Made by a program: the position numbers and the translations under genes
NCBI RefSeq assembly: GCF_039531105.1
Contig: NZ_BAAAPK010000001.1
Location: 3,009,818 to 3,073,817 of the forward strand
Length of the DNA: 64,000 nucleotides
Origin: Microbacterium lacus
GTDB taxonomy: Bacteria > Actinomycetota > Actinomycetes > Actinomycetales > Microbacteriaceae
Direction of reading: 5' to 3'
The notes under the pieces: model-generated
Databases searched by the model: none
The model's input: the letters and a program-made list of their open reading frames with translations, nothing else
Told to the model about the DNA's origin: nothing
Part shown: piece by piece, positions 47,846-62,265 of the stretch
Layout of the letters: every line of letters begins with the position of its first letter
How positions within the stretch are numbered: the stretch's first letter is position 1

Positions 47846-48880
47846 TCAGTGAGGCGCCTTCCCGGTCGAGGCCCCGCCTTCGATGAGGAGCGGCAGCACG
47901 TCGTGAGAGAACTGTGCGATGAATCGGCGTTGGTCGAGTCCGGGCGCATGGAAGATGAGGTGCGTGAACCCCGCCTGGACGTACTCACGGACGCTGGACG
48001 CCACCTGCTCGGGATCCGATCCGACGATCCATCGCGATGCGATCTGCTCGATGGACAGAGCATCTGCCGCCTGCTCCATCTCGACGGGGTCCGTCAGGTC
48101 ATGCTTCTGCTCCTTCGACAGCGAGAGCGGCGCCCAGAACCGGGTGTTTTCAAGCGCACGGCCGGGGTCGGTGTCGTACGAAACCTTGATCTCGATCATC
48201 CGCTCGACCGATTCCGGATCACGGCCGACGGAGCGCGCGCCGTCGGTCACCGCGGGCTGAAGCTCATCGGTGTAGAGGGCCATCCCCTTACCGGATGTAC
48301 AGATGAAGCCGTCTCCGGCGCGGCCGGCGTAACGGGCGACGACGGGACCACCGGCTGCGACGAAGATCGGAACCGGTCGCTCAGGCCGGTCGTACACCGT
48401 GGCGTCGCGGACCGAGTAGTACTCGCCATCGAGTGTCACGCGATCCTCGGTCCACAGCAGGCGCATGATGTCGACCGACTCACGCAGTCGAGCGAAACGC
48501 TCGCGGAAGGCCGGCCACGGGCCCTTCCACCCCGATGCGACCTCGTTCAGTGCCTCACCGGTTCCCACCCCGAGGAACACCCGCCCTGGGAAGAGACAGC
48601 CCATAGTCCCGAACGCTTGCGCGAGCACCGCCGGGTTGTAGCGGAACGAGGGCGTGAGCACCGACGTGCCGAGGGTCAACGACGACGTCCGCTCTCCAAC
48701 GGCCGCCATCCATGCCAAGGCGAAGGGTGCGTGTCCGCCGGTGTGACGCCAGGGCTGGAAGTGGTCACTGACGGTCACGCTGTCGAAACCGGCCGCCTCC
48801 GCCTCGACCGCGATCTCCACGAGCTCACGGGGAGCAAACTGCTCCGCCGACGCCTTCAGCCCGAACCGAACGCGGCTCAC
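47846..48880 (-). CDS. fgd: F420-dependent glucose-6-phosphate dehydrogenase (Fgd)
   Basis: 344 residues of the luciferase-like TIM-barrel superfamily, matching mycobacterial Fgd1 along its whole length. His40, Trp44 and Glu109 fall at the catalytic positions. Lys198, Lys259 and Arg283, which hold the substrate phosphate in Fgd1, are present at the same numbers. The signatures [14 protein letters not shown] and [16 protein letters not shown] are intact. It should oxidise glucose 6-phosphate and make F420H2. It is the last gene of a ten-gene operon; its GTG overlaps the alcohol dehydrogenase stop (GTGA). Confidence 0.92.
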
Positions 48881-50001
48881 GATCCGACCCCGTCGGTGGG
48901 AAACTCGATGATCTGGCGGATGGATCGACCGTCGGCAAGCTCGTCCATGCCCGCATTGATGTCCGACAGGGCGCGGTGCGCCGAGATGAGCCGGTCGATC
49001 GGCAGCCTGCCACTGCGCCACAGCTCAACGTATCGCGGGATGTCACGCTCGGGCACGGCGGAGCCCAGATAGCTTCCCACGACATGCCGACCCTCGGCGA
49101 CGAGCAAGAGGGGACTCACTGACACTCGCGCATCCGGATGCGGGAGACCGACGGTGACCGTCGTTCCACCCGGCGCCGTCAGGGCGAGTGCCGTCTCAAA
49201 GGCCGCCGCCGCGCCCGCCGCTTCGACCACGACCTCCGCTCGAACACGCGCCTCACGTGCATCATCCGGCGCAAACACCCGCGCTGCCCCAAGCTCGAGC
49301 GCCGTCGCACGCTTGCCTTCGTCGAGATCCACGCCGATAACCTCGACACCGTCGATCGCACAGGCCGTGAGAAGCGCCGCCATCCCGACGCCCCCGAGCC
49401 CGACGACGCAGACGCGATCCCCAGATGTCGGAGGCGCAGCGTTCAGGATGGCTCCGCCGCCCGTCAGGATCGCGCACCCGAGAAGCGCCGCGATATCGGC
49501 GGGCACGTCCTCATCAACGCGCACGACGGAGCGCCTGTCGACGACTGCGGCTGTCGCAAAGGCGGACACTCCGAGATGGTGCTGCAGGCCGCGTCCGTTC
49601 TGGTGCAGACGGCGCTCCCCTGAAAGCAGCGTGCCTGCCGCGTTCGACGCACTTCCTCGTTCGCAGGGCATGCGCCCGTCGCTCGCACATGCAGGGCACT
49701 CGCCGCACCGCGGGAGGAACGTCATGACGACGCGATCGCCGACCCCGAGGTCGTCGACGTTCGGACCGCAGTCGATAACCCGACCGGATGCTTCATGCCC
49801 AAGCAGCATCGGGAGCGGACGCGAACGGTCGCCATTGATGACCGAGAGATCCGAGTGACAGAGCCCCGCCGCTTCGATTCGCACAAGGATCTCGCCGCGA
49901 CCCGGCGGATCGAGATCGATCTCGGCGAGCTGCAACGGCATCGACTCGCTGTAGGGTCGGGCCGCGCCTTCGGAATGCAGAACTGCTCCTCGGATTCTCA
50001 C
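48877..50001 (-). CDS. Zinc-dependent alcohol dehydrogenase
   Basis: 374-residue medium-chain dehydrogenase. Catalytic zinc ligands are in [10 protein letters not shown] and LGHEASG with a later Cys; the structural-zinc loop is [18 protein letters not shown]. The NAD loop is GLGGVGM with an acidic end to strand 2 (GVDLDEG), favouring NAD over NADP. It resembles class III/formaldehyde or mycobacterial long-chain alcohol dehydrogenases. Translationally coupled on both sides. It would oxidise an alcohol intermediate of the unknown substrate. Confidence 0.9.
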
Positions 50002-50993
50002 AGTGCGGGCACCACCTCTCTGACCAGAAGATCCAGCGACGAGTGCGCCGACTCGGCGGGCATGTCGGGCCACTCGGTCCGGTAGATGAACTCGTCAACA
50101 CCGATCTCGTCGCGGAAGCGAGTGAGCTCCGTCAGGCAGTGCTCGGGGTCGCCCACGATGAAGCGGCCACGGCCAACGGTGTCGGCCCCTCCCGTGAGGG
50201 CTCGTTGGCCGGGATGCCCATCGTCCTGACCCCAGGTTGCGTAGCGGCCGTACTTCTTCTCGAGGTAGGGCAGCGCCTGCTCCCGGGCTTTCTTGGTCGT
50301 GGGGGCGCAATACACCTCGCGAAACGCCGCGATCCACCCACGACCATTGCCGTGCTGGACGGATGTCTCGCGATAGAGCACGGCTTGCCGCGCGATCGTC
50401 TCACTCGGCGCGGCGGGGTTGAGGATCCACCCCTCCGAGAGCCGTCCCGCGCGCCGTACGGCAGGGTCGCTCGTTCCCCCGATCCAGACGGGGATGTCAC
50501 CCGCGACGGGGGGCGTTCCGATCGTCGCCCCTTCTAGCCGGCACCACGGCTCATCCGCGTCGACCGCCTCGCCGCGCCAGAGTCGACGAGCGATCTCGAG
50601 GCTGCGTTCGAAGCGCTTCACGCGCGACGAACGGTCGACGCCGAAGGCAGCGAATTCCTCGGGACGGTAGCCGAGACCGAGCCCAGCGACGGTTTTGCCG
50701 CCCGTGATGACGTCGAGCGTCGCGAACTCCTCGGCCATCGCCACCGGGTTCCCGAGCGTCCAAAGGTGTATGCCGGTCCCGAAAGAGAGGCCGGGCGCCT
50801 CAGCCGCCAGCCGGGCGAGGAACGGCAAGGGCTGCAGGCGCTGCGTACCCTCCGTGATGAAGTGCTGTCCCGTGAAGATCGAGTCCCAGCCGGCATCCGC
50901 GACCACCGCCGTCATATCCAACTGCTGACCCAGGTGCGCGGAGAGATCGGCAGGTGCCGTGTGCTCGTTCGTGAGGAAGAGTCCGGCCTTCAT
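49998..50993 (-). CDS. Luciferase-like (F420 or FMN) oxidoreductase
   Basis: 331 residues of the LLM superfamily (MKAGLFLTNEHTAP, FTGQHFITEGTQRL, GTGIHLW, GLGLGYRPEEFAAFGV). The GLGYRPEEF segment is seen in F420-binding LLM reductases and in FMN monooxygenases; the presence of an fgd gene in the same operon favours F420H2. Its ATG overlaps the preceding stop (ATGA), its own stop the next start (GTGA). The reaction is unknown. Confidence 0.85.
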   Translation of the reverse strand: MKAGLFLTNEHTAPADLSAHLGQQLDMTAVVADAGWDSIFTGQHFITEGTQRLQPLPFLARLAAEAPGLSFGTGIHLWTLGNPVAMAEEFATLDVITGGKTVAGLGLGYRPEEFAAFGVDRSSRVKRFERSLEIARRLWRGEAVDADEPWCRLEGATIGTPPVAGDIPVWIGGTSDPAVRRAGRLSEGWILNPAAPSETIARQAVLYRETSVQHGNGRGWIAAFREVYCAPTTKKAREQALPYLEKKYGRYATWGQDDGHPGQRALTGGADTVGRGRFIVGDPEHCLTELTRFRDEIGVDEFIYRTEWPDMPAESAHSSLDLLVREVVPAL

Positions 50994-51388
50994 CCGGCAT
51001 CCGTCCGGGCGAGATGGGCGAACTCGTCGGTGGCGAGGACCTCCTCTAGAAGCGGGAAGGCCATCATCGGCACATGGAAGCCCCCCACGAGGCCAGCGAG
51101 CTCGAGGGCGTTGACGATCTCCTCGCGTGTCGCACCGTGACGCAGCGCCTCGCCCATGTGGAACTTTAGACCGTAGGTGAAGTAGACCGCCGCGTCAGCG
51201 GCGATCATGATGAGCTCCTTCGTCGCGCGCGGCAGCACGTCGTTCTGGTGCACGGCGTGCATGTATGACTCGTGGAACTGCGCGAGAGCGTCCGGGCTCT
51301 GCCGTGACGCGATCTCGAGATTGGGATGCACGACTCCCCGATCGCTCTCGATCCGGGCGACCAGGTCCGTCACAGCGGCGGCATCCAT
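50990..51388 (-). CDS. Carboxymuconolactone-decarboxylase-like (AhpD fold) protein
   Basis: 132 residues with the helical AhpD/CMD fold (RATKELIMIAADAAV, HMGEALRHGATREEIVNALELA). The CXXC pair of peroxidase-type AhpD is replaced (YFTYGLKFHM has no cysteine), so redox activity is unlikely and a lyase or hydrolase role like that of gamma-carboxymuconolactone decarboxylase is more plausible. Coupled to the amidase and LLM genes by ATGA overlaps. Confidence 0.82.
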   Translation of the reverse strand: MDAAAVTDLVARIESDRGVVHPNLEIASRQSPDALAQFHESYMHAVHQNDVLPRATKELIMIAADAAVYFTYGLKFHMGEALRHGATREEIVNALELAGLVGGFHVPMMAFPLLEEVLATDEFAHLARTDAG

Positions 51389-52986
51389 CAGCGTCCCTTC
51401 GTGAAGGTCGTCGGCTGGACCCAGTCGAAGGGGGCGTCCTGAAGAGCCCAGCCGTGACCGAGCTCGTACGCGCGCGCGAGTCGCAGCAGCCGCGCGTCGT
51501 CATGGCGCCGAGCGACGGCCATGACGCCGACCGGAAGACCTCCCGCATCAGCGGCGGGCATGCTGATAGCAGGGTGGCCCGTCAGGTTGAAGAGCGGGAC
51601 GTTGTGCATCATGCCCCAGCCCCGCAACGACGTCTCGACCCCGTCGACATCGTCTCGCGCGAGAAACGGCGTGTGCGACGTCGTCGGCATCATGAGCACG
51701 TCGACCCCGTTGAGCGCATCGTCGACCGCGGCGCGCATCCCCGCGGCCAGCTGATGGGCGCGCGCGCCGACCTCGCCTCCGCGCTGACGATTGAGATACG
51801 TGCCGACCATGAGTACGGCCTTGAAGTTGTCGGGCATCCGTTCTCCCCGGCCGGCGATCGCGGTCGACAGCGCTGCGGCGAACTCCGGCGACGACTCCGC
51901 GAGCCAGTGGTAGGCGTTGGGCCAACCGAAGGTCGCGGCGGTCGCCGATTCGAGCATCGCGGCGAACATGACGTCACCGCCCTCAGCGAGCACGCCCAGA
52001 TCGACGTCGGCGACCTCGGCCCCGAGGGCGGCGAAACGGTCGGCGGCGGTCCGTACGGCATCCGCCGTCTCGATCGCCCCCTCCGCCGCGTCAGGATCGT
52101 CAGCCGCGCGGAACCCCTGGCGGACGAGTCCAATCCGGACTCCCGTGAGGTCGGGGCCCGTCGAAGCCACCTCCGCCGCGTAGGCGGGGCGTTCGATACG
52201 GACCGGGGATACATAGTCTGCGTCGTCGTAGACGATAGGCGACACGACCGCATCCATTCCGCGCGCCATGATCTCGACGCTGCGCGCAAGGGGCCCGGCA
52301 TGATCGAATCGCCAGTCCGAGGTCGGGATGCCTCCGAACGGCACGAGGCCGTGCGTCGGCTTGAGGCCTAGGACACCGCTCCACGAGGCGGGGATCCGGC
52401 ACGAGCCACCCGTGTCCGTCCCCCAGGCCAAGTCGACGCCGTCGTACCAGAGCGCAACGGCCGACCCGGTCGAGGACCCCGAGGCCGTGCGCGCTCGGTC
52501 AAAAGGATTCTCGACGCGACCGTGCCCCGACGTCTCTCCCCCACCCGAGAAGGCGAACGCCTCCATGTTCGTCGTCCCCACGATCCGACCGCCGGCGGCA
52601 AGCACGCGCCGGGTCAACTCGGCGTCCTCGGCAGGCACGTAGTCCGTCAGGACGTCCGACCCCATCGTCATAGGCACACCCGCGATGGGGATGTTGTCCT
52701 TCATGACGACGTTGATCCCATCGAGGGCGCCCGATGCGCTGGGCTGGAAGATGTCGACGACACGCAAGACCGCGTTCAGCGGATCTTCGTCGGGGCGAGG
52801 CACGCGTCCGGCGTCCCGCGGCGGCGCAGAGGGCCTCGGCTGTGCACGAGCGACGTTGTCAAACCGGTCGACCGTGTCGATCATGTAGTCGGTGAGCGTC
52901 TGGAATCGCTCAGCCTCGGCAGCCGGGATCGGGAAGCCCAGTTCAGTGGAGAGGTTCGTAATGTCCTCGGGAGTCAGTCGGCGCAT
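51388..52986 (-). CDS. Amidase-signature family enzyme
   Basis: 532 residues with the Ser-cisSer-Lys triad: lysine in INVVMKDNIP near residue 100, the Gly/Ser stretch ASGSSTGSAVAL and the nucleophile region DTGGSCRIPAS. It cleaves an amide or ester bond; the N-terminal ~75 residues are longer than in the core family. The ATG at 52986 has AAGGGG 5 nt upstream. In the operon it would open an amide, urea or lactam formed from the imported substrate. Confidence 0.9.
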   Translation of the reverse strand: MRRLTPEDITNLSTELGFPIPAAEAERFQTLTDYMIDTVDRFDNVARAQPRPSAPPRDAGRVPRPDEDPLNAVLRVVDIFQPSASGALDGINVVMKDNIPIAGVPMTMGSDVLTDYVPAEDAELTRRVLAAGGRIVGTTNMEAFAFSGGGETSGHGRVENPFDRARTASGSSTGSAVALWYDGVDLAWGTDTGGSCRIPASWSGVLGLKPTHGLVPFGGIPTSDWRFDHAGPLARSVEIMARGMDAVVSPIVYDDADYVSPVRIERPAYAAEVASTGPDLTGVRIGLVRQGFRAADDPDAAEGAIETADAVRTAADRFAALGAEVADVDLGVLAEGGDVMFAAMLESATAATFGWPNAYHWLAESSPEFAAALSTAIAGRGERMPDNFKAVLMVGTYLNRQRGGEVGARAHQLAAGMRAAVDDALNGVDVLMMPTTSHTPFLARDDVDGVETSLRGWGMMHNVPLFNLTGHPAISMPAADAGGLPVGVMAVARRHDDARLLRLARAYELGHGWALQDAPFDWVQPTTFTKGR

Positions 52987-53011
52987 CGTCGCCCCTTTCT
53001 CGGTCAGGTTG

Positions 53012-53899
53012 TCAGAGGTGGTTGTGAACGAGATGAGCCGGATTGTCGCGGAAGATGAGCTCCAGTTCGCGCCGCGACAGGCCAGCAGCCGCAAGTCCGT
53101 CGGCGAGATCCTGAAGCATCGCGCTGGACGGAGGGCTCCACGAGAAAAAGTAATCGGATGTCGCGACGCATCGTTCGGCCCCGACCAGACGCACCATGCC
53201 CGCGAGGTCGGCGTGGGTGACGCGCCCGATCTGGGGGTACGCGCCCAGCGCGCAGATCTCGACGAAGGCGCCCAGCCTGGCGGCCTCGGCCATCTCGTCG
53301 GCACGTGCACCGATGGAATGGCTGTCGGGGTGCGCGAAGACGTACCGGTCGCTGAGTCTGCCCGTCTTGAGCAGAGCGATCGTCTCGGTCGTGCTCACGT
53401 GCCCCGAGTAGACGAGCACGGGGAAATCGTCGAGCACGTCGAGCAGATTTCGCGCGTCGGGGGTGAGTTCGCCATCGGACGTCAGCATCCGGGTGCCGAC
53501 CTCGCGCGCGGCATCGAACCGATCGATGACGCCGGCGATGCGTGCGGAGATTCCAGCGCGCGCGAGGTCGCTTGCCGCGCTGACCGTCGGCAGGAAGACG
53601 ACACCCGCACCCTGCTTCACCGCCATCTCGACGATGTCGGGTGTGATGCCGCCCGCGAAGCGGTTGAGCGTGATCGATGGGATGACCGCGATCCCCTCGA
53701 CGGCTTGCGCCACCAGTTGCGCACGCCCGATCGTGGGCCACACATGGGACTTCAGAACGACGCCGCGCATCCCCGCATCCCTGCAGGTCGTGATGTCGTC
53801 GACGTCTGACACGGGAGTGCGCAGATCGTCGGAGATCTCTGGATAGCCGTGCCGATGGAGGTCGACGGCACCCTCGAGGATTCCTTCCGCGAGAGTCAC
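53012..53899 (-). CDS. DUF6282 amidohydrolase-like protein
   Basis: 295 residues with an amidohydrolase-like histidine pattern: DLHRHGYPE near the N terminus, GVVLKSHVWPT, and a later FAHPDSHS plus TSDYFF. This matches DUF6282 as I know it, a family without assigned chemistry that often sits beside catabolic genes. The GTG overlaps the lyase stop (GTGA). Likely a metal-dependent hydrolase or lyase. Confidence 0.82.
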   Translation of the reverse strand: MTLAEGILEGAVDLHRHGYPEISDDLRTPVSDVDDITTCRDAGMRGVVLKSHVWPTIGRAQLVAQAVEGIAVIPSITLNRFAGGITPDIVEMAVKQGAGVVFLPTVSAASDLARAGISARIAGVIDRFDAAREVGTRMLTSDGELTPDARNLLDVLDDFPVLVYSGHVSTTETIALLKTGRLSDRYVFAHPDSHSIGARADEMAEAARLGAFVEICALGAYPQIGRVTHADLAGMVRLVGAERCVATSDYFFSWSPPSSAMLQDLADGLAAAGLSRRELELIFRDNPAHLVHNHL

Positions 53900-54771
53900 G
53901 GCCCCACCTCGCCGAGGACCGCGGCCTCCAGACGCTCCGCCGCCTCTATGCCCACGAGGGTGTTGAGGCTTCCCAACGTCGACATCCGGTCGACCCACGC
54001 GGAACTGTCGCCGTCGGCGAGAAGGTCTCGGAAGAAGCGGACGAACGCGTCCGACGCGATCCGCAAGGACGATGTCGGGTACAGCACGATCCCGTAGCCG
54101 AGTTCTGCGAACCTCTCGCGGGACAGCATGGGCGTCAGCCCTGATTCCGACATGTTCGCGACGAGGATGCCGGGGACCTCGGCCGCGATCCGCTCGAGCT
54201 CCGCCTCACTTTCCGGCGCGTCGATGAAGAGCGCATCGGCGCCCGCGTCGTGGTAACGCCGCGCGCGATCGATCGCCTCTCCGATGCCGAAGGGGGCGCG
54301 GGCGTCGGTGCGGGCGACGATGAGCGTCGTTTCGTCGGCCCGGGCACGCACGGCTGCGCGGATCTTCCGTTCCATCACGTCTGTCGGCTCCACGGACTTG
54401 CCTCGCAGATGGCCGCAGCGTTTGGGCCACGTCTGATCTTCCAGCTGGATGCCGGCCGCCCCCGATGACTCGAGGCGCTCGACGGCGCGCGCGACGTTGA
54501 CGACGTCGCCGTAGCCCGTGTCGGCATCGACGATGACGGGCATGTCGACGACCGCGGTCACCGCTCGCAGCGACTCAGTGATCTCGGCGAGCGCGATGAT
54601 GCCGATGTCCGGAAGGCCGTGCCGCCAGGCGGCCGTGGCGTACCCGCTGACATAGGCGGCCCTCGCCCCGGCGCTCTGCGCCGCCAGGGCTTCGAGCGGT
54701 GTCCCGACGCCGGGGAGGACGATCGTGCCGCCCGCTTCGCGGATAGCGCGGATGATGCGCGACTCAGGCAC
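53896..54771 (-). CDS. Isocitrate lyase/PEP mutase family lyase
   Basis: 291 residues of the PEPM/ICL superfamily: VDADTGYGD near residue 83 binds Mg2+, and the flexible loop carries KRCGH, whose cysteine is the general acid in true C-C lyases. Relatives cleave 2-methylisocitrate, 2,3-dimethylmalate or oxaloacetate. The GTG at 54771 overlaps the permease stop by 8 bp. It probably splits a branched dicarboxylate late in the pathway. Confidence 0.9.
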   Translation of the reverse strand: MPESRIIRAIREAGGTIVLPGVGTPLEALAAQSAGARAAYVSGYATAAWRHGLPDIGIIALAEITESLRAVTAVVDMPVIVDADTGYGDVVNVARAVERLESSGAAGIQLEDQTWPKRCGHLRGKSVEPTDVMERKIRAAVRARADETTLIVARTDARAPFGIGEAIDRARRYHDAGADALFIDAPESEAELERIAAEVPGILVANMSESGLTPMLSRERFAELGYGIVLYPTSSLRIASDAFVRFFRDLLADGDSSAWVDRMSTLGSLNTLVGIEAAERLEAAVLGEVGP

Positions 54772-55768
54772 CGGCGGATCCTCTCCGTCCTCGGCCTGCG
54801 AGGATGGCGGCGAACGAGACGGCCAGCAGCAAAGCGAGACCGTTGAAGACGGGCGCGACCCAGAATGGCGCTCCCAGCAGGTTGAGACCGGACACTCCCA
54901 CTGCCAGCACGAGAACTCCGACCATGGTTCCCCAGACGTTGAATCTTCCGCGCCGGATCGTGGTCGCCCCGAGGAAGGCTGCTGCGTAAGCGGGCAGGAG
55001 GAACGCAGGACCCGTGCTCGGGCTTGCCGAGCCCACGGTCCCGGTCTGGAGCACACCGGCGACTCCGGCGAGAGCGCCGGCGCCGATGAATGCGATCGCG
55101 AGATACGCGTTGGTCGGGACCCCGGCGAGGCGCGCGGGAGCACGGCCGAGTCCCGTCGCGGCGAGGTAGCGGCCGAACGGGGTCCGCTCCAGCAGTATCC
55201 ACAGGATGAGCGCGATGACGATGAGGTAGTAGAACGTGAGGGGGAGCCCCAGGAAGCGGCTGCGGGCGATCACGGTGAGCCCCTCGTCGATGCCCTCGAA
55301 GAGCACTGATCCGTTCGTGAGGAGCAGATTGCCGCCCGAGAGCAGCGTCCCCATTCCGAGCGTCGCGATGAACGCGCTGACCCGTACCTTGACGACGAGG
55401 AAGGCGTTGACCGCGCCGATGAGCGCGCCCGCGCCGATGCCCAGCAAGATGGCTGGTACGAGCGGCACGCCACCGATGGACGCCCATGCGGTGAGGACCG
55501 AGGTGAAACCGAGCGTTGCACCGACGGACAGGTCGAATTCTCCCGCCGCGAGGGGCAGGATCACGGCGAGGGCGAGGATCGCGGGCACGGCCTGATTGTT
55601 GGCGATTGCCTGGAAGTTGGACCAGGTGGGGAAAAGGGTCGGCGCCACCATCGAGAAGACGGCGATAAGCACGAGCAGGAAGATGACGATGGCGTAGTTG
55701 CCCACAGCCTGCTGCGCGATGCGGCGGCCCGTGCCGCGCGGGGCGGCAGTAGTGGCCGTAGTGGTCAT
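54764..55768 (-). CDS. Ribose-type ABC transporter permease (RbsC family)
   Basis: 334 residues with eight to ten helices and the conserved cytoplasmic loop GENERA equivalents ATGLGRAPARLAGV, then FIGAGALAGVAGVLQ and LLPAYAAAFLGATT. Forms the channel of a CUT2-class importer. The ATG overlaps the ATPase stop (ATGA). Confidence 0.93.
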   Translation of the reverse strand: MTTTATTAAPRGTGRRIAQQAVGNYAIVIFLLVLIAVFSMVAPTLFPTWSNFQAIANNQAVPAILALAVILPLAAGEFDLSVGATLGFTSVLTAWASIGGVPLVPAILLGIGAGALIGAVNAFLVVKVRVSAFIATLGMGTLLSGGNLLLTNGSVLFEGIDEGLTVIARSRFLGLPLTFYYLIVIALILWILLERTPFGRYLAATGLGRAPARLAGVPTNAYLAIAFIGAGALAGVAGVLQTGTVGSASPSTGPAFLLPAYAAAFLGATTIRRGRFNVWGTMVGVLVLAVGVSGLNLLGAPFWVAPVFNGLALLLAVSFAAILAGRGRRGSAGA

Positions 55769-57297
55769 GAGAGGGCTCCTGACGAGGATTCGGATGACGG
55801 TGGGGAGAAGCTGGATGAGGTTAGGCGTTCGACCGTGATGTCGGACCCACGGACCTCGTCCACGAGGCGTCCGCGGTCGAGGACGAGGACCCGATCGCAA
55901 AGCGATGCGAGTTCGTCGAAGTCGGTCGATGCCACGACGAGCGCGATGCCGGTTGCGGCGAGCTCGCGACAGATGGCCGCGATCTCGCCGCGTGCGCCGA
56001 TGTCGATTCCCTGCGTCGGCTCATCGAGGACCAGCACCGACAGATCGAGGGCCGCGTTCCGCGCGAAGACGACCTTCTGCTGGTTTCCGCCGCTGAGGTC
56101 GTCCATCGGCGCCGCGGGGATCGGGGGACGAACACCGAACCGTCGCACGAGCGTGCGGGCGAGATCGTCCTCTTTGCGCCGATTGACGAAACCCGCGTCA
56201 CTGACGCTGTGGAGCACGCTGAGCGTTGCGTTCTCCGCGACGGTCATTCCAGTCACGGCCCCCTCGGCCCGCCGGTCCTGCGGGACGTATCCGACTCCAC
56301 GGCGACGAGCGTGACGAGGTGAGCGCGGAGCGTACCCCTGGTCCTTGAGTCTGAGGCCGCCCGCCGCGGGAGACTGCGCACCGGCCAGCATGCGCGCCAG
56401 CTCGGAGCGTCCGCATCCGATGAGGCCGGTCACGCCCAGGATCTCTCCCCGGCCGAGCTTGAACGAGACGCCCTGGAGCCGTGGGCCACCAAGCCCTTCG
56501 ACCGCCAAGACGGTAGGGCGCTCGATGCTGGAGCGCTGGTGGGAGACGACGGGCGCCGGGCGTCCGAGCACTAGCTCGATGAGGTCCGCGGTCGAGTGAC
56601 CCGCGTTCGGCGTGTGCGTCACGAGGCGTCCGTCGCGCAGGATGACGAGATCGTCGGCGATCTGTCGGACCTCGTCCAGGCGATGCGAGACATAGACGAT
56701 CGATGCACCTTCGGAGACGGCCGTGCGCAGAGCACCGAGGACCTTCTGCACCTCGGACTCGGGGAGGGAGGCCGTCGGCTCATCGAGGAAGATCGTCGGT
56801 CGGTCGGCCTCGAAGAATGCCCGCGCGATGGCGACCATCGTCTGCTGGGCAGGCGCCAGCTGACTCATGAGCGTCGAGGGATCGACCTCGACGCCCAGCC
56901 GGTCGAGCGTGTCTGCGACGCGGGCGTCCTGACGCCGCTGCGCGATCAGCCCGCCCCGGACGACCCCCGTGAAGCGCTCCGTCAGCGCGAAGTTGTCACT
57001 TACCGACATCGCCGGAACGATCGCGAGGTCCTGATGCAGGAAGCGCACGCCGAGCGAGTGGACGTGGCGCGGGGCAACCGGGAGCGCTAAGGGCTGGCCG
57101 TGCACGAACGCCTCGCCCTCGCCTGCGTCTGGGGTGTAGAACCCGGACAGGATCTTGATGAGCGTCGACTTGCCGGAGCCGTTCTGTCCGAGCAGAGCCG
57201 TGACGCGCCCGGTTCCGAAGGCGACGGTCACGTCGTCGAGCGCACGCTGGGCGCCGAAGGTCTTCGAGATGTTTCTGACCTCGATGGCAGCATCCAT
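55765..57297 (-). CDS. Ribose-type ABC transporter ATPase (RbsA family)
   Basis: 510 residues with two ATPase halves. The first half has Walker A GQNGSGKST (residues 36-44), a divergent signature LAPAQQTMVAIARA and LDEPTASL. The second half has a degenerate Walker A GLIGCGRSE, the signature LSGGNQQKVVFARN and LDEPTQGID, the asymmetry typical of CUT2 ATPases. The ATG at 57297 follows AGGAA. Confidence 0.94.
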   Translation of the reverse strand: MDAAIEVRNISKTFGAQRALDDVTVAFGTGRVTALLGQNGSGKSTLIKILSGFYTPDAGEGEAFVHGQPLALPVAPRHVHSLGVRFLHQDLAIVPAMSVSDNFALTERFTGVVRGGLIAQRRQDARVADTLDRLGVEVDPSTLMSQLAPAQQTMVAIARAFFEADRPTIFLDEPTASLPESEVQKVLGALRTAVSEGASIVYVSHRLDEVRQIADDLVILRDGRLVTHTPNAGHSTADLIELVLGRPAPVVSHQRSSIERPTVLAVEGLGGPRLQGVSFKLGRGEILGVTGLIGCGRSELARMLAGAQSPAAGGLRLKDQGYAPRSPRHARRRGVGYVPQDRRAEGAVTGMTVAENATLSVLHSVSDAGFVNRRKEDDLARTLVRRFGVRPPIPAAPMDDLSGGNQQKVVFARNAALDLSVLVLDEPTQGIDIGARGEIAAICRELAATGIALVVASTDFDELASLCDRVLVLDRGRLVDEVRGSDITVERLTSSSFSPPSSESSSGALS

Positions 57298-57316
57298 GGG
57301 AATTCCTAGCGTCGGG

Positions 57317-57346
57317 GTCGGGGAGGACATGCGCGTCCTCCCCGAC
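57317..57346 (-). promoter_or_regulatory. Intercistronic hairpin after the binding-protein gene
   Basis: GTCGGGGAGGAC (57317-57328) and GTCCTCCCCGAC (57335-57346) form a perfect 12-bp stem with a 6-base loop between the binding-protein stop and the ATPase start. It probably ends or slows part of the transcripts so that binding protein is made in excess. Confidence 0.65.
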
Positions 57347-57363
57347 GGGGGTGAGAGGCGACG

Positions 57364-58470
57364 TCAGCCGATGCCCCACATGCGGCTGTACTCCGAGCGG
57401 AAGTCGAAGTCGCCCGTCCAGGCGGTGCCCTTCTCGGGGAGGTTGTCGGCGGTGAGGATGCGCGCGGGAACGCCGTCATCCTCGACCATCGGAGCGCCCT
57501 GGCTCAGTCGAAGCACCGCATCAGCACCTGCCCAGCCGACCCACTCGAGCGCCTCGCCGACCACGATCTTTTGGGGTGCGCCGGCGCGGATGAACTCGAG
57601 GTTCTGCAGGTTTCCATTGAACGACGCCACCATGACGTCGTCACGACCGGATTGCTGGACCGCCTGGACCATGTCTGTGGCAGCGGCGTCATACGGAGCC
57701 CACAGCACGTTCACGTCGGGGTTGGCCTGGATCGTGCTTTGCACGAGCGAGACGAGATCGGCACCGCCTGCGGTCTGCGAGATGTCTTGCTCAGCCACGA
57801 TCTCGCATCCGGAGCAATCGGCGAAGACCTCCTTGCTGCCCTCGACGCGTTTGACAACGGTCTTGAACTCGTTGCCCGTGAACATGGCGACCTTCGCATC
57901 GCCGCCGGTCTCCACGACGATCTGCGCCGCAAGCATCCGACCTTCCTCGTCTCCATGAAGAGACACCTCGTGATCGAGTCCCGTCGTGTTGTCGGTCGCG
58001 GAGGCGACGACAAAGATGCCCGCATCACGAGCGCGTTCGAGCGCGCCGGCGACGATGTCAGGGTCGATGGAGACGAGGAACACGGCGTCCGCGTCCTGCG
58101 TGATGGCCTGGTCAATGGCGGCGTTGTCCAGCGAGGGGTCACCCTTCGGGTCGACGAGGGTCGTCTCCCATCCGAGGGCGTCGGCGGCTTCGATGAAACC
58201 TTCCGCCTGCCGTTTGCATCCCTCGGTCGCCATTCCACAGGGAACGACGACGACGGACAGCGCCGTCCCGTCTGTCACTGGGCTGTCTGTCGGACCGGGC
58301 CAGGTGGAAATCTCCTGGCGGCCCTGCTCGGCGATTGCAGCGACCGCCTCCGGCACAGCACCGGCCTGGGCGCTGGGCGCCGCGACGTCTTCGTCCGGAC
58401 CGCTGCATGCGCTGAGCAGCAGAACAGCCGTAGCGAGGACGACGGGCGCGAACCACATCTGCTTCTTCAT
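57364..58470 (-). CDS. Substrate-binding lipoprotein of the ribose-type importer
   Basis: 368 residues with lipobox LLSAC (cysteine near residue 22), then a periplasmic-binding-protein 4 (sugar-binding, LacI-like) fold: DADAVFLVSIDP, ASATDNTTGLDHEVSLHGDEEGRM. Four cysteines in two pairs (VPCGMATEGC, DCSGCE) may form disulfides. The ligand is unknown; CUT2 proteins bind pentoses, AI-2, nucleosides or small polyols. AAAGGAG lies 7-8 nt before the ATG. First gene of the operon. Confidence 0.92.
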   Translation of the reverse strand: MKKQMWFAPVVLATAVLLLSACSGPDEDVAAPSAQAGAVPEAVAAIAEQGRQEISTWPGPTDSPVTDGTALSVVVVPCGMATEGCKRQAEGFIEAADALGWETTLVDPKGDPSLDNAAIDQAITQDADAVFLVSIDPDIVAGALERARDAGIFVVASATDNTTGLDHEVSLHGDEEGRMLAAQIVVETGGDAKVAMFTGNEFKTVVKRVEGSKEVFADCSGCEIVAEQDISQTAGGADLVSLVQSTIQANPDVNVLWAPYDAAATDMVQAVQQSGRDDVMVASFNGNLQNLEFIRAGAPQKIVVGEALEWVGWAGADAVLRLSQGAPMVEDDGVPARILTADNLPEKGTAWTGDFDFRSEYSRMWGIG

Positions 58471-58593
58471 GGCTCGACTCCTTTCACATTCGATGTCGGG
58501 TGCGGCGGCTGCCGCGTGTGGTGCAGTCACCCGGTCAGGCACGTCGGGCGAGAAAGCTCCGAGTGGCGCCGAGGTCGGCTCCAACTTCGGACA

Positions 58594-58614
58594 CTGGTTC
58601 GCTCAGCGGACCAG
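58594..58614. promoter_or_regulatory. 21-bp palindromic operator downstream of the operon promoter
   Basis: CTGGTNCGCTNAGCGNACCAG: four paired blocks match perfectly around the centre. It lies roughly 14-34 nt after the predicted start of the operon transcript, a suitable roadblock site for the adjacent IclR regulator. Confidence 0.65.
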
Positions 58615-58634
58615 CGTTTCTCTTTCTGGACCAC

Positions 58635-58664
58635 ACGTTAGGGCTGACTCCCCGCATCGGTCAA
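58635..58664 (-). promoter_or_regulatory. Promoter of the ten-gene catabolic operon
   Basis: Minus strand TTGACC (58664-58659), 18-bp spacer, TAACGT (58640-58635). The rest of the 314-bp gap between the binding-protein gene and the IclR gene (58471-58784) holds the operator, the leader and no ORF that I can support. Confidence 0.65.
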
Positions 58665-58784
58665 TACGCGATGTGTGACGTTCGTGTTACGACACCGGGC
58701 GCGGCCAGGCGCCCTAAGTGCCGAACTCGGGCGCGCCGAAGACACCCGTCACAGCGATAGCCGCGCCAGGTGTTGGGGAGTGGG

Positions 58785-59543
58785 TCAGCTCCAGCCCATC
58801 GCGGAGGTTACGGCGGCCGCGGTCGCACTCACGGACGCAGCGAGTTGCGTCTCAGCCGCTTCGACACGTTCGAGAAGACCGCCGAGGCTCACGGCACCCA
58901 CAGGTGCGCCCGACTCGTCGCGCAGGGCGACGGCGATGGCCCCCACGCCTTGTGAGACGTCTCCTCGTGCAACGGCATAGCCATGCTCGCGGGCGAAGGC
59001 CACGCGGCGCCGGACGGCCGCTCCGCGTTCCGGATCGAGGCCGGAGACGGCCGCATCCAGGGCGTCGGTGTCAAGGACGCTGAGTATGGCGCTTCCACTC
59101 GCGCCGACGTGGAGGGGCACGACGGTGCCGGGAGGGGTAGAGAGATCGCGCATCGGATGCCACCCCTCGATGCGCTCGGCGCAGGCTGCCGCATTGTCTC
59201 GCAAGAGCATCAGATAGACCGTCTCCCCCGTCTGCTCGCGCAGTTGACGCAGTGCCGACCGGGCCTCTTTACGGATGTCGAGCGACGAGGCGACGACGTC
59301 GGCCAGCTGCATGATCCGCACCCCCAGCCGGTAGGCCCGCGTCTGGTCGTTCTGCTCGAGCAGGCCGAGCGAGACGAGCGTCTGTGCCACACGATGCACG
59401 GTCGCCTTGCTCAGCCCGACCTCGGCAGCAAGGCGGGTGAGCCCCATTTCGGGACGCTCACGGGTGAATGCGAACAGGATCTCTCCCGCGCGCGTGACGC
59501 CGTTGAGGTCGGATCCGCGCTCCGGACCATCGTTTTGTCCCAT
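58785..59543 (-). CDS. IclR-family transcriptional regulator
   Basis: 252 residues: N-terminal winged HTH (MGLTRLAAEVGLSKATVHRV, near 33-52) and a C-terminal effector domain (GWHPMRDLSTPPGTVVPLHVGASG, DVSQGVGAIAVAL, GAVSLGGL). It lies upstream of the catabolic operon in the same direction and is the only regulator nearby, so it probably senses the substrate or an early product. Confidence 0.92.
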   Translation of the reverse strand: MGQNDGPERGSDLNGVTRAGEILFAFTRERPEMGLTRLAAEVGLSKATVHRVAQTLVSLGLLEQNDQTRAYRLGVRIMQLADVVASSLDIRKEARSALRQLREQTGETVYLMLLRDNAAACAERIEGWHPMRDLSTPPGTVVPLHVGASGSAILSVLDTDALDAAVSGLDPERGAAVRRRVAFAREHGYAVARGDVSQGVGAIAVALRDESGAPVGAVSLGGLLERVEAAETQLAASVSATAAAVTSAMGWS

Positions 59544-59550
59544 GAACCGA

Positions 59551-59579
59551 ACGGTAGGCGTCGCAAAGACACCAGTCAA
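59551..59579 (-). promoter_or_regulatory. Promoter of the iclR-type gene
   Basis: Minus strand TTGACT (59579-59574), 17-bp spacer, TACCGT (59556-59551), then 7 nt to the ATG: a consensus-like, leaderless promoter. Confidence 0.75.
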
Positions 59580-59821
59580 GCCGCACCGGGTCGGATCACA
59601 TCCGCGGGGTGCGGGTCCGCTCTTTCCGGAGACCGGTCCATCCCATCGCTCGAGAGGGGCAGAAGGCCACCGTCTCTGTCGAGCCGCGATTGGGTCGTTC
59701 ATAGGCCGCGGGCTCTATCGGTGGCGTTCCCCAGCATCGGATGACGAAAACGAGTCGTACGTCGTCCACGGTTCTCGTGGCGGGCACGACTGGCACGCTC
59801 ACCATCTGCACTCCTCATCTC

Positions 59822-60715: not shown

Positions 60716-61618
60716 TCACGGCGCGATGTTGCTTCTCCACATCCATGCCAGGGCCGGGATCCAGGCCACCAGCACATAGGAGGCGCCCGCCATCATGATG
60801 AGGAGGACGACCGACCACGCGCTGATCATTCTCAAGTTCTTCGGCCGTTCCAACAGCATGGCGACCGAGAGGAGGGCTCCTGCGATGATCACGATCGTCG
60901 GCAAGATGGCGGCCTGAACGCGATCACTCACGAAACAGTTGCGCGGTCCTGGCATAGATAATGCACACGCCTCGGGCCCGATCGGCACAGCGATCAACCA
61001 GACAACTGCAAGAGCGAGGACGGTGGCAATCCCCACCGCCAGGAGGCGCTTTCGAAGAGCCAGGCCGTAGCGTCCGACCTGCTGCGAAGCGGTCATGGCT
61101 TGAGCGTATGTCGGTACGACTCGGGCGGCGCGTGCCGCCGCAGAATCATCTTTTGCTTTCTGGTAACGGCTGCGCGCTGTGGAGGCGGGGATGCCCGTGA
61201 CCTGGGCGGCTTGGGCCAGGGTGAGCCTGTCCCAGTGGACGAGTCGGATGAGCTCGGCAAGGTCTGGCTCGAGGCGGGCAACGGCATCTCGGACGTCCAC
61301 TCCGGCGTCGGAGGCGGGTGCGGGGTTCTCCGGGGCGAGCATGAGTCGGAGCCGGTCGGCGAGTCGCCAGCGGCGTCGTTCGGCGCGGTCGGCGTTGGCG
61401 AGGACGTTTCGTGCGACGCCGAACAGCCACATGCGCGCTTCCGTCGTGTCCTTTGGCACGTCTGCTGCTTTCCGCCAGGCTGTGAGCATGGTTTCGGCCA
61501 CCAGGTCGGCGGCGTCGTTTGTTCCGACTCGTCGTTCAAAGTAGGCGAGGATGTCGACGGCGTTGAACGAGATGACGTCGGTCAGGTGCGCCGCGAGGTC
61601 CTTATCTGTGCGCGTCAC
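60716..61618 (-). CDS. ECF sigma factor fused to a C-terminal membrane domain
   Basis: 300 residues in one uninterrupted frame. Residues 1-~85 are sigma region 2 (AVDILAYFERRV, AADLVAETMLTAWR, ARMWLFGVARNVLAN). Residues ~110-160 are region 4 (RLTLAQAAQVTGIPASTARS). Then follow about three transmembrane helices (~190-205, 230-250, 262-285). A TACGCT box sits 6 nt before an in-frame ATG at 61096, so the membrane part (126 residues) might also be made alone. The GTG start overlaps the upstream gene's stop (GTGA). Confidence 0.75.
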   Translation of the reverse strand: MTRTDKDLAAHLTDVISFNAVDILAYFERRVGTNDAADLVAETMLTAWRKAADVPKDTTEARMWLFGVARNVLANADRAERRRWRLADRLRLMLAPENPAPASDAGVDVRDAVARLEPDLAELIRLVHWDRLTLAQAAQVTGIPASTARSRYQKAKDDSAAARAARVVPTYAQAMTASQQVGRYGLALRKRLLAVGIATVLALAVVWLIAVPIGPEACALSMPGPRNCFVSDRVQAAILPTIVIIAGALLSVAMLLERPKNLRMISAWSVVLLIMMAGASYVLVAWIPALAWMWRSNIAP

Positions 61619-62265
61619 CACTGCATCCCCGGGCAGCTCGCCTCGCTTTGCCAGGAGAAATCCTCCGGCCCGACGCCGTACCCGTTGCGCTGCAGCTCCG
61701 CAGCGACGGCCGTGGTGACGGCCGCCGGCACCGCCAAGTAGTACTCCACGTCGGGGCTGGGATAGTTCTCGGTCCCGTACCCGACCTGGATGTCTTTGCC
61801 ATCGACGCGAGCGACCGAGGGCGGGGCCATGCGCTGCTTCTGGATCTCCGCATCGACGTCGAGGATGGTAGCGATGTCCACGCTGCGCAGGTAGGCAGCT
61901 GTCTCTTCGCTGATCGCTGGGGTGGGGCCCTGCAAGTTCCCGATGACCTGGAACTCGCAGTTCACGCCGCTGGGCAGGGTGACGCTGAACGAGTCCGGCG
62001 AGTTCTGCTGCCACCACGGCACCAACCCCCAGGTGCTCGCCGCGGCCGCGCCCGCCCCACCCAGCAGCACCACGGCCGCGACACCGATCGCTGCGGCACG
62101 GGTGAAGCCCCGCCCCGCCCGTGCTGGGCGGTGATCGGTTCGAGCGGCCACGCTCATCCGAGCAAGCTCATCCTCGATCGCGTCAGACACCACGGTCGTA
62201 ACCGGGCCTGCGTCATCCAGCAGACCATCGAGCGGATCGTGTGGTGCGTTGCTGCGTTCCGTCAT
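61615..62265 (-). CDS. Membrane-anchored protein coupled to the sigma factor
   Basis: 216 residues: a short acidic N terminus (DPLDGLLDDAGPVTTVV), one transmembrane helix (about 50-72, AAAIGVAAVVLLGGAGAAAAS) and an extracellular domain with cysteines at VNCEFQ and ASCPGMQ. The layout is like an anti-sigma factor but no zinc HXXXCXXC motif is present, so that role is inferred only from the overlap with the sigma gene. The ATG at 62265 has AAAGGA upstream. Confidence 0.7.
   Translation of the reverse strand: MTERSNAPHDPLDGLLDDAGPVTTVVSDAIEDELARMSVAARTDHRPARAGRGFTRAAAIGVAAVVLLGGAGAAAASTWGLVPWWQQNSPDSFSVTLPSGVNCEFQVIGNLQGPTPAISEETAAYLRSVDIATILDVDAEIQKQRMAPPSVARVDGKDIQVGYGTENYPSPDVEYYLAVPAAVTTAVAAELQRNGYGVGPEDFSWQSEASCPGMQW

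Follow-up and report, generated by a model that had tools for sequence, protein, structure and literature searches.

A putative mobile catabolic operon of Microbacterium lacus with a built-in F420-dependent glucose-6-phosphate dehydrogenase

We analysed a 64,000-nucleotide window of the Microbacterium lacus genome (contig NZ_BAAAPK010000001.1, positions 3,009,818 to 3,073,817), in which 11 minus-strand genes occupy positions 47846-59543. An iclR regulator gene is followed by a ten-gene operon (47846-58470), and the order in gene direction is iclR, CUT2 substrate-binding protein (SBP), ATPase, permease, PEPM, DUF6282, amidase, CMD, luciferase-like monooxygenase-class oxidoreductase (LLM), alcohol dehydrogenase (ADH) and fgd, the gene for F420-dependent glucose-6-phosphate dehydrogenase (Fgd). 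By comparison of genomes, the iclR-to-fgd block is a rare accessory, horizontally mobile catabolic unit that was moved in one piece, fgd included. The best explanation of the whole, which we hold with moderate confidence, is a mobile catabolic unit whose LLM would consume F420H2 supplied by its own Fgd.

Transfer of the iclR-to-fgd block and identity of its Fgd

A synteny check, suggested by the original prediction, found the cluster conserved in other genomes as well. The full gene set was present in the same order in two further Microbacterium genomes, with proteins 88–99% identical in G167 and 74–93% identical in Microbacterium sp. AG1240. Blastn similarity spanned 47864-59582 against G167 and 47885-59565 against AG1240, starting just upstream of iclR and ending with fgd, and the rest of the window gave no blastn match to the flanks of either relative (4.3–4.6 kb on the iclR side, 4.9–9.7 kb on the fgd side). 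Because the similarity stops at fgd and the flanks do not match, fgd is counted as part of the unit. No direct or inverted repeats of at least 11 bases were detected within ~600 bases either side of each block end. Purifying selection acts on each of the 11 genes, with ratios of nonsynonymous to synonymous substitution (dN/dS) of 0.018–0.109 against the nearer relative and 0.088–0.176 against the farther one; the values for fgd were 0.079 and 0.123.

The block was rare at every level searched. Of 366 genus genomes, 4 have a close CMD gene, and the operon is present in three of these. The other one (G833, CMD 50–52% identical) was considered as a fourth operon and rejected, as its neighbours gave only a 37% PEPM match and LLM matches of 25%. 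A close LLM occurred in 3 of 398 family genomes. DUF6282 at E<=1e-20 was present in 6 of 297 order genomes, and besides the window's own genome only G167 and G135, a distant member of the same order, showed more than 35% identity. Two DUF6282 peptide patterns run over 84,980 species genomes returned 5 loci; the cluster was present in AG1240 and Amnibacterium flavum, and the remaining three loci (33–37% best-segment identity) were without it. The same-species genome G762 gave no match in the genus-level search, but it is 86% complete and in ~340 contigs, so the absence is unsure. Rare occurrence, the conserved gene set and the non-matching flanks together led us to regard the block as an accessory unit moved whole.

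Two partial relatives indicate which genes form the core. The A. flavum cluster contains iclR, PEPM, DUF6282, CMD, ADH and LLM genes (58–72% identical) and a shikimate-type major facilitator superfamily transporter gene (390.7 bits, cut-off 538), and no CUT2 match and no amidase match was found in it. The G135 locus showed iclR, PEPM, DUF6282, CMD and ADH at 50–76% identity plus another amidase. Near these genes were a hydantoinase-like protein (362.3 bits, cut-off 393.25), a PIG3-type reductase (223.6 bits, cut-off 296.8), Opp-type transport genes and CUT2-like matches of 28–40%; neither an LLM nor an fgd match was found at this locus. The CMD kin in A. flavum and G135 each have one Cys, unlike the cysteine-free operon CMD. 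The shared genes therefore define a core of iclR, PEPM, DUF6282, CMD and ADH. As judged from these loci, LLM and then fgd were added to the core, or were lost elsewhere. The medium-chain dehydrogenase/reductase-type enzyme in G135, in place of LLM, would by analogy fit a reductive step.

The terminal gene, fgd (47846..48880, minus strand), carries a Bac_luciferase domain in Pfam, and its product passed the NCBIfam Fgd equivalog TIGR03554 with 574.5 bits against a cut-off of 420. It matched the solved Fgd 5lxe, which we take to be Rhodococcus Rh-FGD1, across 329 residues. His40, Trp44, Glu109, Lys198, Lys259 and Arg283 were present in it and in the 44 non-operon Fgds aligned with it, so the alignment bore out the earlier claim that these six residues are kept at the Fgd1 positions. 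In PMC5352752, Lys198, Lys259 and Arg283 are described as the phosphate pocket of Fgd. All ten active-site positions examined were identical between the operon Fgd and these 44 Fgds, and the operon Fgds share changes at the otherwise conserved sites 8, 78 and 276. In a phylogeny built from 47 Fgds with three Fgd-like outgroups, the three operon copies formed a single clade (100/100), separate from five biosynthesis-linked Microbacterium Fgds (100/99) and from the genome's second fgd. By equivalog score and residues, the operon fgd product is assigned as Fgd (EC 1.1.98.2). A divergent Fgd-like LLM (36–38% identity) was also seen within 2 kb of the true fgd in several Microbacteriaceae (L045, L055-L058, L060).

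The original prediction had called for F420 biosynthesis genes in this genome, and matches to fbiC, cofC, cofD and cofE were found. The fbiC gene is one long frame on contig C2, whose CofH part scored 268.3 bits, under the single-domain cut-off of 374.1. CofD (306.4 bits, cut-off 257.45), CofC (114.3 bits, cut-off 105) and the F420 ligase (cofE; 172.6 bits, cut-off 25) scored above their cut-offs. Judged by gene content, the cell can make F420. Three Fgd genes above cut-off were present: the operon copy, a copy beside fbiC/cofC/cofD on C2, and a copy in a second cluster. Both other operon-bearing Microbacterium genomes have one further Fgd above cut-off. AG1240 gave FbiC and CofD matches, and A. 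flavum a CofD match. Between fbiC and the fgd copy beside it, Microbacterium genomes encode a conserved 502-aa protein, flavin monooxygenase-like by eye (L022:8537-10045; also L044, L079, L080, L081, L123).

Gene layout and predicted functions

Families were assigned by Pfam and NCBIfam profile searches. All families named in the original prediction scored above the Pfam cut-off, with Fgd identified by the NCBIfam equivalog. The iclR-family regulator (58785..59543, minus strand as are all the genes here, ATG at 59543) showed IclR_C and HTH_IclR domains. The substrate-binding protein (57364..58470; Peripla_BP_4, 114.5 bits), the double ABC domain ATPase (55765..57330; ABC_tran in two stretches) and the permease (54764..55768; BPD_transp_2, 106 bits) have the Pfam composition of a CUT2 importer. 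Downstream are the PEPM/ICL-family C-C lyase (53896..54771; PEP_mutase, 146.9 bits), the DUF6282 protein (53012..53899; 160.3 bits), the amidase-signature amidase (51388..52986; Amidase, 265.8 bits) and the CMD/AhpD-like protein (50990..51388; CMD, 42.9 bits), which, as had been noted earlier, has 0 Cys. The LLM, a presumed F420H2-dependent reductase (49998..50993; Bac_luciferase, 163.4 bits), and the Zn alcohol dehydrogenase (48877..50001; ADH_N and ADH_zinc_N, with GLCHSD, GHE and a four-Cys motif) precede fgd.

Junctions were computed with the likely start codons. Overlaps of 4 nt were observed for ATPase/permease, PEPM/DUF6282, CMD/LLM, LLM/ADH and ADH/fgd, of 8 nt for permease/PEPM and of 1 nt for amidase/CMD. 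Gaps of 25 nt and 33 nt lie ahead of the amidase and the ATPase, respectively. These coordinates agree with the earlier description, in which starts overlap stops from the ATPase to fgd except at the 25-nt gap.

The 314-nt gap between iclR and the SBP gene contains a promoter-like element, TTGACC-18-TAACGT, and downstream of it a 21-bp palindrome (58594..58614, not assigned to a strand; inverted repeat with 9 pairs) that is a probable IclR operator. The original prediction had named a promoter and an operator; the promoter-like element was read by eye and was not flagged by a consensus promoter scan, and the palindrome has a putative operator role. The scan listed the palindrome as a terminator-like site on the opposite strand, and it was recognisable in both Microbacterium relatives carrying the operon. 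Upstream of the block and outside the shared segment, the window holds a sigma-70 family (extracytoplasmic function-like) factor gene (60716-62017, minus strand).

The PEPM protein has the PEP_mutase domain and the K(K/R)CGH motif of the PEPM/ICL superfamily (KRCGH here), the Cys of which is catalytic. Its best solved chains were petal death protein, carboxyvinyl-carboxyphosphonate phosphorylmutase and methylisocitrate lyases. It scored below the methylisocitrate lyase (prpB) equivalog TIGR02317 (288.8 bits vs 354.4) and reached none of the listed NCBIfam equivalogs. The nearest solved chain of the amidase was 3a1k (228.2 bits).

In DUF6282, H15, H17, K50, H52, H167, H190, E214 and D249 were invariant in all six aligned proteins, and the profile matched the phosphotriesterase homology protein 1bf6 (E 4.5e-4). 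In the amidohydrolase superfamily, the metal ligands are an HxH motif, another two His and an Asp late in the sequence. H15, H17, H167, H190 and D249 fit this pattern, and DUF6282 is a probable metal-dependent TIM-barrel hydrolase. A literature search, within its accessible sources, found no paper naming DUF6282. In a Gracilibacteraceae metagenome-assembled genome (L028:8620-12686), a DUF6282 gene was seen after an MmgE/PrpD gene and before short-chain dehydrogenase/reductase and 3-hydroxyisobutyrate dehydrogenase-like genes.

Three annotated haloarchaeal neighbourhoods of LLM relatives were inspected. One contained MmgE/PrpD, nitrile hydratase and CoA ester lyase genes, another MmgE/PrpD, a PEP mutase family lyase and a tricarboxylate transporter, and the third CoA transferase and MaoC genes instead. 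A 46% identical LLM in G1247 has an HpcH/HpaI lyase and MmgE/PrpD in its vicinity and no fgd next to it. Such evidence points towards acids and amides that are small and unsaturated or branched, and to no single compound. Cyclic imides and nicotinate-type or shikimate-like substrates were considered, and none was supported enough to name. The original prediction had proposed an amide- or ring-containing substrate. The amide remains a fair inference from the amidase, tempered by the A. flavum cluster without an amidase match, and the ring would follow from analogy with the hydantoinase-like gene of the G135 variant.

Proposed pathway and alternative explanations

In the pathway that we propose, an inducer would relieve IclR repression and the CUT2 importer would take up an amide that is small, polar and probably cyclic or unsaturated. 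The LLM would act on this amide early, using F420H2 to reduce it. The reduced product would be opened and deamidated by the DUF6282 hydrolase and the amidase, and processed further by the alcohol dehydrogenase and the CMD-like protein. The PEPM/ICL lyase would then cleave the carbon skeleton into central metabolites. Fgd would share the transcript of these enzymes and would oxidise glucose 6-phosphate to regenerate F420H2; the supply of reductant would thereby increase together with the pathway.

The operon LLM likely uses F420. In favour of this, fgd is a fixed part of the block, and the wider clade of the LLM includes two Streptomyces cathayae LLMs from a cluster with npdG. Of 52 plasmid records matched by the LLM at E<=1e-20, the 20 rows and ten genera named, and the rows at that level in a second listing that omits 24 records, are all haloarchaea or actinomycetes, lineages that make F420; ten of the 52 records belong to genera outside those named, and the weaker plasmid matches include Sinorhizobium, Agrobacterium and Paraburkholderia. 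CofD was present in all 20 class genomes in which a related LLM was found (E<=1e-35), compared with 248/295 overall; both counts, made with the same settings, are taken to cover the same 295 class genomes. The S. cathayae plasmid cluster itself (L033:5371-13313) holds four LLM genes, an adenylate-forming enzyme gene and npdG, and arrays of four LLM matches were also seen in L119, L120 and L122.

Several results weigh against an LLM supplied by its own Fgd. The best NCBIfam family for the LLM was TIGR03619 (F420-dependent), with 125.2 bits, below the cut-off of 166.9. Its PDB matches included both FMN enzymes and F420 enzymes, and the best of them was a luciferase-type chain. In the tree, which held only two FMN references, both on long branches, the LLM fell in a separate clade outside the FMN references and outside the F420 references (97/93 without the LLM). 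The CofD co-occurrence (hypergeometric P 0.027, without correction for kinship) is weak, because the genomes are related and CofD is already present in 248 of the 295. In A. flavum, fgd is located elsewhere in the genome and not beside the LLM gene; a private Fgd is thus not required, because A. flavum keeps the LLM without it. The genome itself has two Fgd genes besides the operon copy. We infer co-transcription of the ten genes solely from their overlaps, the order of the pathway steps is a guess, and the evidence names no operon substrate. The operon's "own F420H2 supply", as the original prediction put it, is well supported as a unit of inheritance, and the case for F420 use by the LLM is a circumstantial one.

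The sub-threshold F420 family score and the FMN enzymes among the PDB matches would also suit an FMNH2-dependent monooxygenase in the style of RutA or SsuD, which would open the substrate oxidatively while fgd was kept to feed another cellular reductase. The LLM genes without adjacent fgd in A. flavum and G1247 and the weaker LLM kin on Sinorhizobium and Agrobacterium plasmids agree with this possibility. We consider it unlikely, since the transferred block consistently ends in fgd, no flavin reductase family was detected among the operon products by Pfam, and LLM kin occur in the cluster with npdG. The operon Fgd could instead act as a pathway dehydrogenase on a substrate-derived sugar phosphate or hydroxy compound, with the LLM consuming the F420H2 so formed in a closed redox loop. 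Sugars are the usual cargo of CUT2 importers, and the shared changes at sites 8, 78 and 276 would fit such a role, yet the ten examined active-site positions are the same as in the 44 other Fgds and none of the operon products matched a sugar kinase family in Pfam, which makes this role quite improbable. There is a still smaller chance that fgd is a passenger, joined to the block before transfer and hitchhiking without functional coupling. Its terminal position and its absence from the A. flavum and G135 clusters would allow this; however, it was kept in all three Microbacterium copies with dN/dS values (0.079 and 0.123) like those of its neighbours, despite further Fgds in these genomes. Consumption of F420H2 by the LLM and its regeneration by the operon Fgd remains our preferred explanation.

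The second fgd cluster and comparison with known systems

The second fgd cluster of this genome lies on contig C1 at ~212.9–224.3 kb (L023:2935-14322). It encodes two transport permeases, a dihydropyrimidinase (532.3 bits, cut-off 393.25), a ribokinase-like kinase (191.6 bits, below the cut-off of 299.65), an LLM above the TIGR03842 F420 cut-off (557.8 bits vs 295.45), a class III aminotransferase, a methylmalonate-semialdehyde dehydrogenase (MMSDH; 681.2 bits, cut-off 448.5), Fgd and an amidase (690 bits, cut-off 575). No dihydropyrimidine dehydrogenase was detected in a search limited to the nine proteins of this cluster. Relatives of this LLM with 44% identity directly follow cofG, cofH, cofD, cofC, cofE and npdG on Paracoccus and Leisingera plasmids (two of 12 annotated records inspected). 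F420 dependence of the second-cluster LLM is supported because these relatives follow cof/npdG genes. In Paracoccus alcaliphilus (L126:4587-11002) and Leisingera aquaemixtae (L127:4510-11002), the genes form a self-contained unit of F420 biosynthesis and a TIGR03842 LLM.

The second cluster looks like F420-dependent reductive pyrimidine degradation. A literature search, within its accessible sources, found no account of F420H2-dependent pyrimidine or uracil reduction by a luciferase-like enzyme. It is conceivable, though doubtful, that F420H2-LLM reduction of cyclic amides is an aerobic entry step in Microbacteriaceae, with a mobile private Fgd charging the cost to sugar phosphates, and that it arose twice here, the second time for pyrimidines with an LLM replacing dihydropyrimidine dehydrogenase.

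Fgd at E<=1e-115 was found at 70 places in 62 of 295 class genomes. We inspected by tblastn the neighbourhoods of 45 of these places, the window's included, together with AG1240 and A. flavum; the other 25 all belong to family f22, and six fetched stretches were cut by contig ends. With window, second-cluster and biosynthesis proteins as the only probes, a compact catabolic run with fgd on the same strand was seen only in window-type operons and the second cluster. Because of this choice of probes, fgd in other kinds of catabolic cluster would be missed, and one such case was seen on a Rhodococcus plasmid. FbiC was within 3 kb of fgd in seven inspected neighbourhoods. L082 showed 31% aldehyde dehydrogenase matches beside fgd and then FbiC, and is not a compact run. 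In L075 and L076, aminotransferase (56–57%) and MMSDH (64–67%) matches were 3.5–7.5 kb off on the opposite strand, and L053, L055, L057, L064 and L067 gave scattered probe matches of 24–33%.

Three of 76 records with a Rhodococcus plasmid fgd were inspected. In L134 and L135 the gene stood beside pentose-phosphate genes, either gnd and pgi or gnd, glpX, tkt and tal, and in Rhodococcus qingshengii (L136:5823-9005) it is preceded by genes for tryptophan 2,3-dioxygenase and a class V aminotransferase-fold protein. These clusters resemble the window operon in having fgd on mobile DNA, and differ from it in that no LLM, importer or PEPM lyase was annotated within 8 kb on each side. Accessory clusters thus recruit fgd occasionally.

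Microbacterium is listed among the genera with Fgd, and F420 roles beyond nitroaromatic degradation in Rhodococcus, Nocardia and Nocardioides are described as little known, in PMC8498797. Our search of the literature, as far as its sources were accessible, found no described operon with Fgd within an LLM catabolic operon. Through its built-in Fgd, the mobile operon offers a concrete example, open to gene deletion, of an F420H2 supply reserved for a single pathway, as well as a first handle on DUF6282, and the second fgd cluster is a testable case for F420-dependent pyrimidine reduction.

Reductive pyrimidine catabolism proceeds by dihydropyrimidine dehydrogenase, dihydropyrimidinase and then amide hydrolysis. 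The window operon shares with it the logic of reducing, hydrolysing a ring and hydrolysing an amide; unlike it, the operon has no dihydropyrimidinase, aminotransferase or MMSDH by Pfam, and has DUF6282 and a C-C lyase instead.

The picrate/dinitrophenol npd operons of Rhodococcus and Nocardioides combine the NADPH:F420 oxidoreductase FNO with F420H2-dependent hydride transferases (PMC5352752), and the hydride transferase is of the LLM type (PMC8498797). They are alike in pairing an F420H2 consumer with an F420H2 regenerator, with F420 use by the LLM presumed in our case. The npd operons regenerate with FNO, whereas the window operon has Fgd instead, and no FNO family was detected among its products by Pfam. 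The CUT2 importer, PEPM lyase, DUF6282 and amidase are absent from the npd descriptions in the accessible parts of these sources.

The operon Fgd resembles the Fgd1 family (Mycobacterium Fgd1, Rhodococcus Rh-FGD1) in sequence, examined active-site residues and equivalog score. Rhodococcus Fgds have been speculated to serve endogenous metabolism (PMC5352752); here, unlike there, Fgd is encoded within a mobile catabolic operon.

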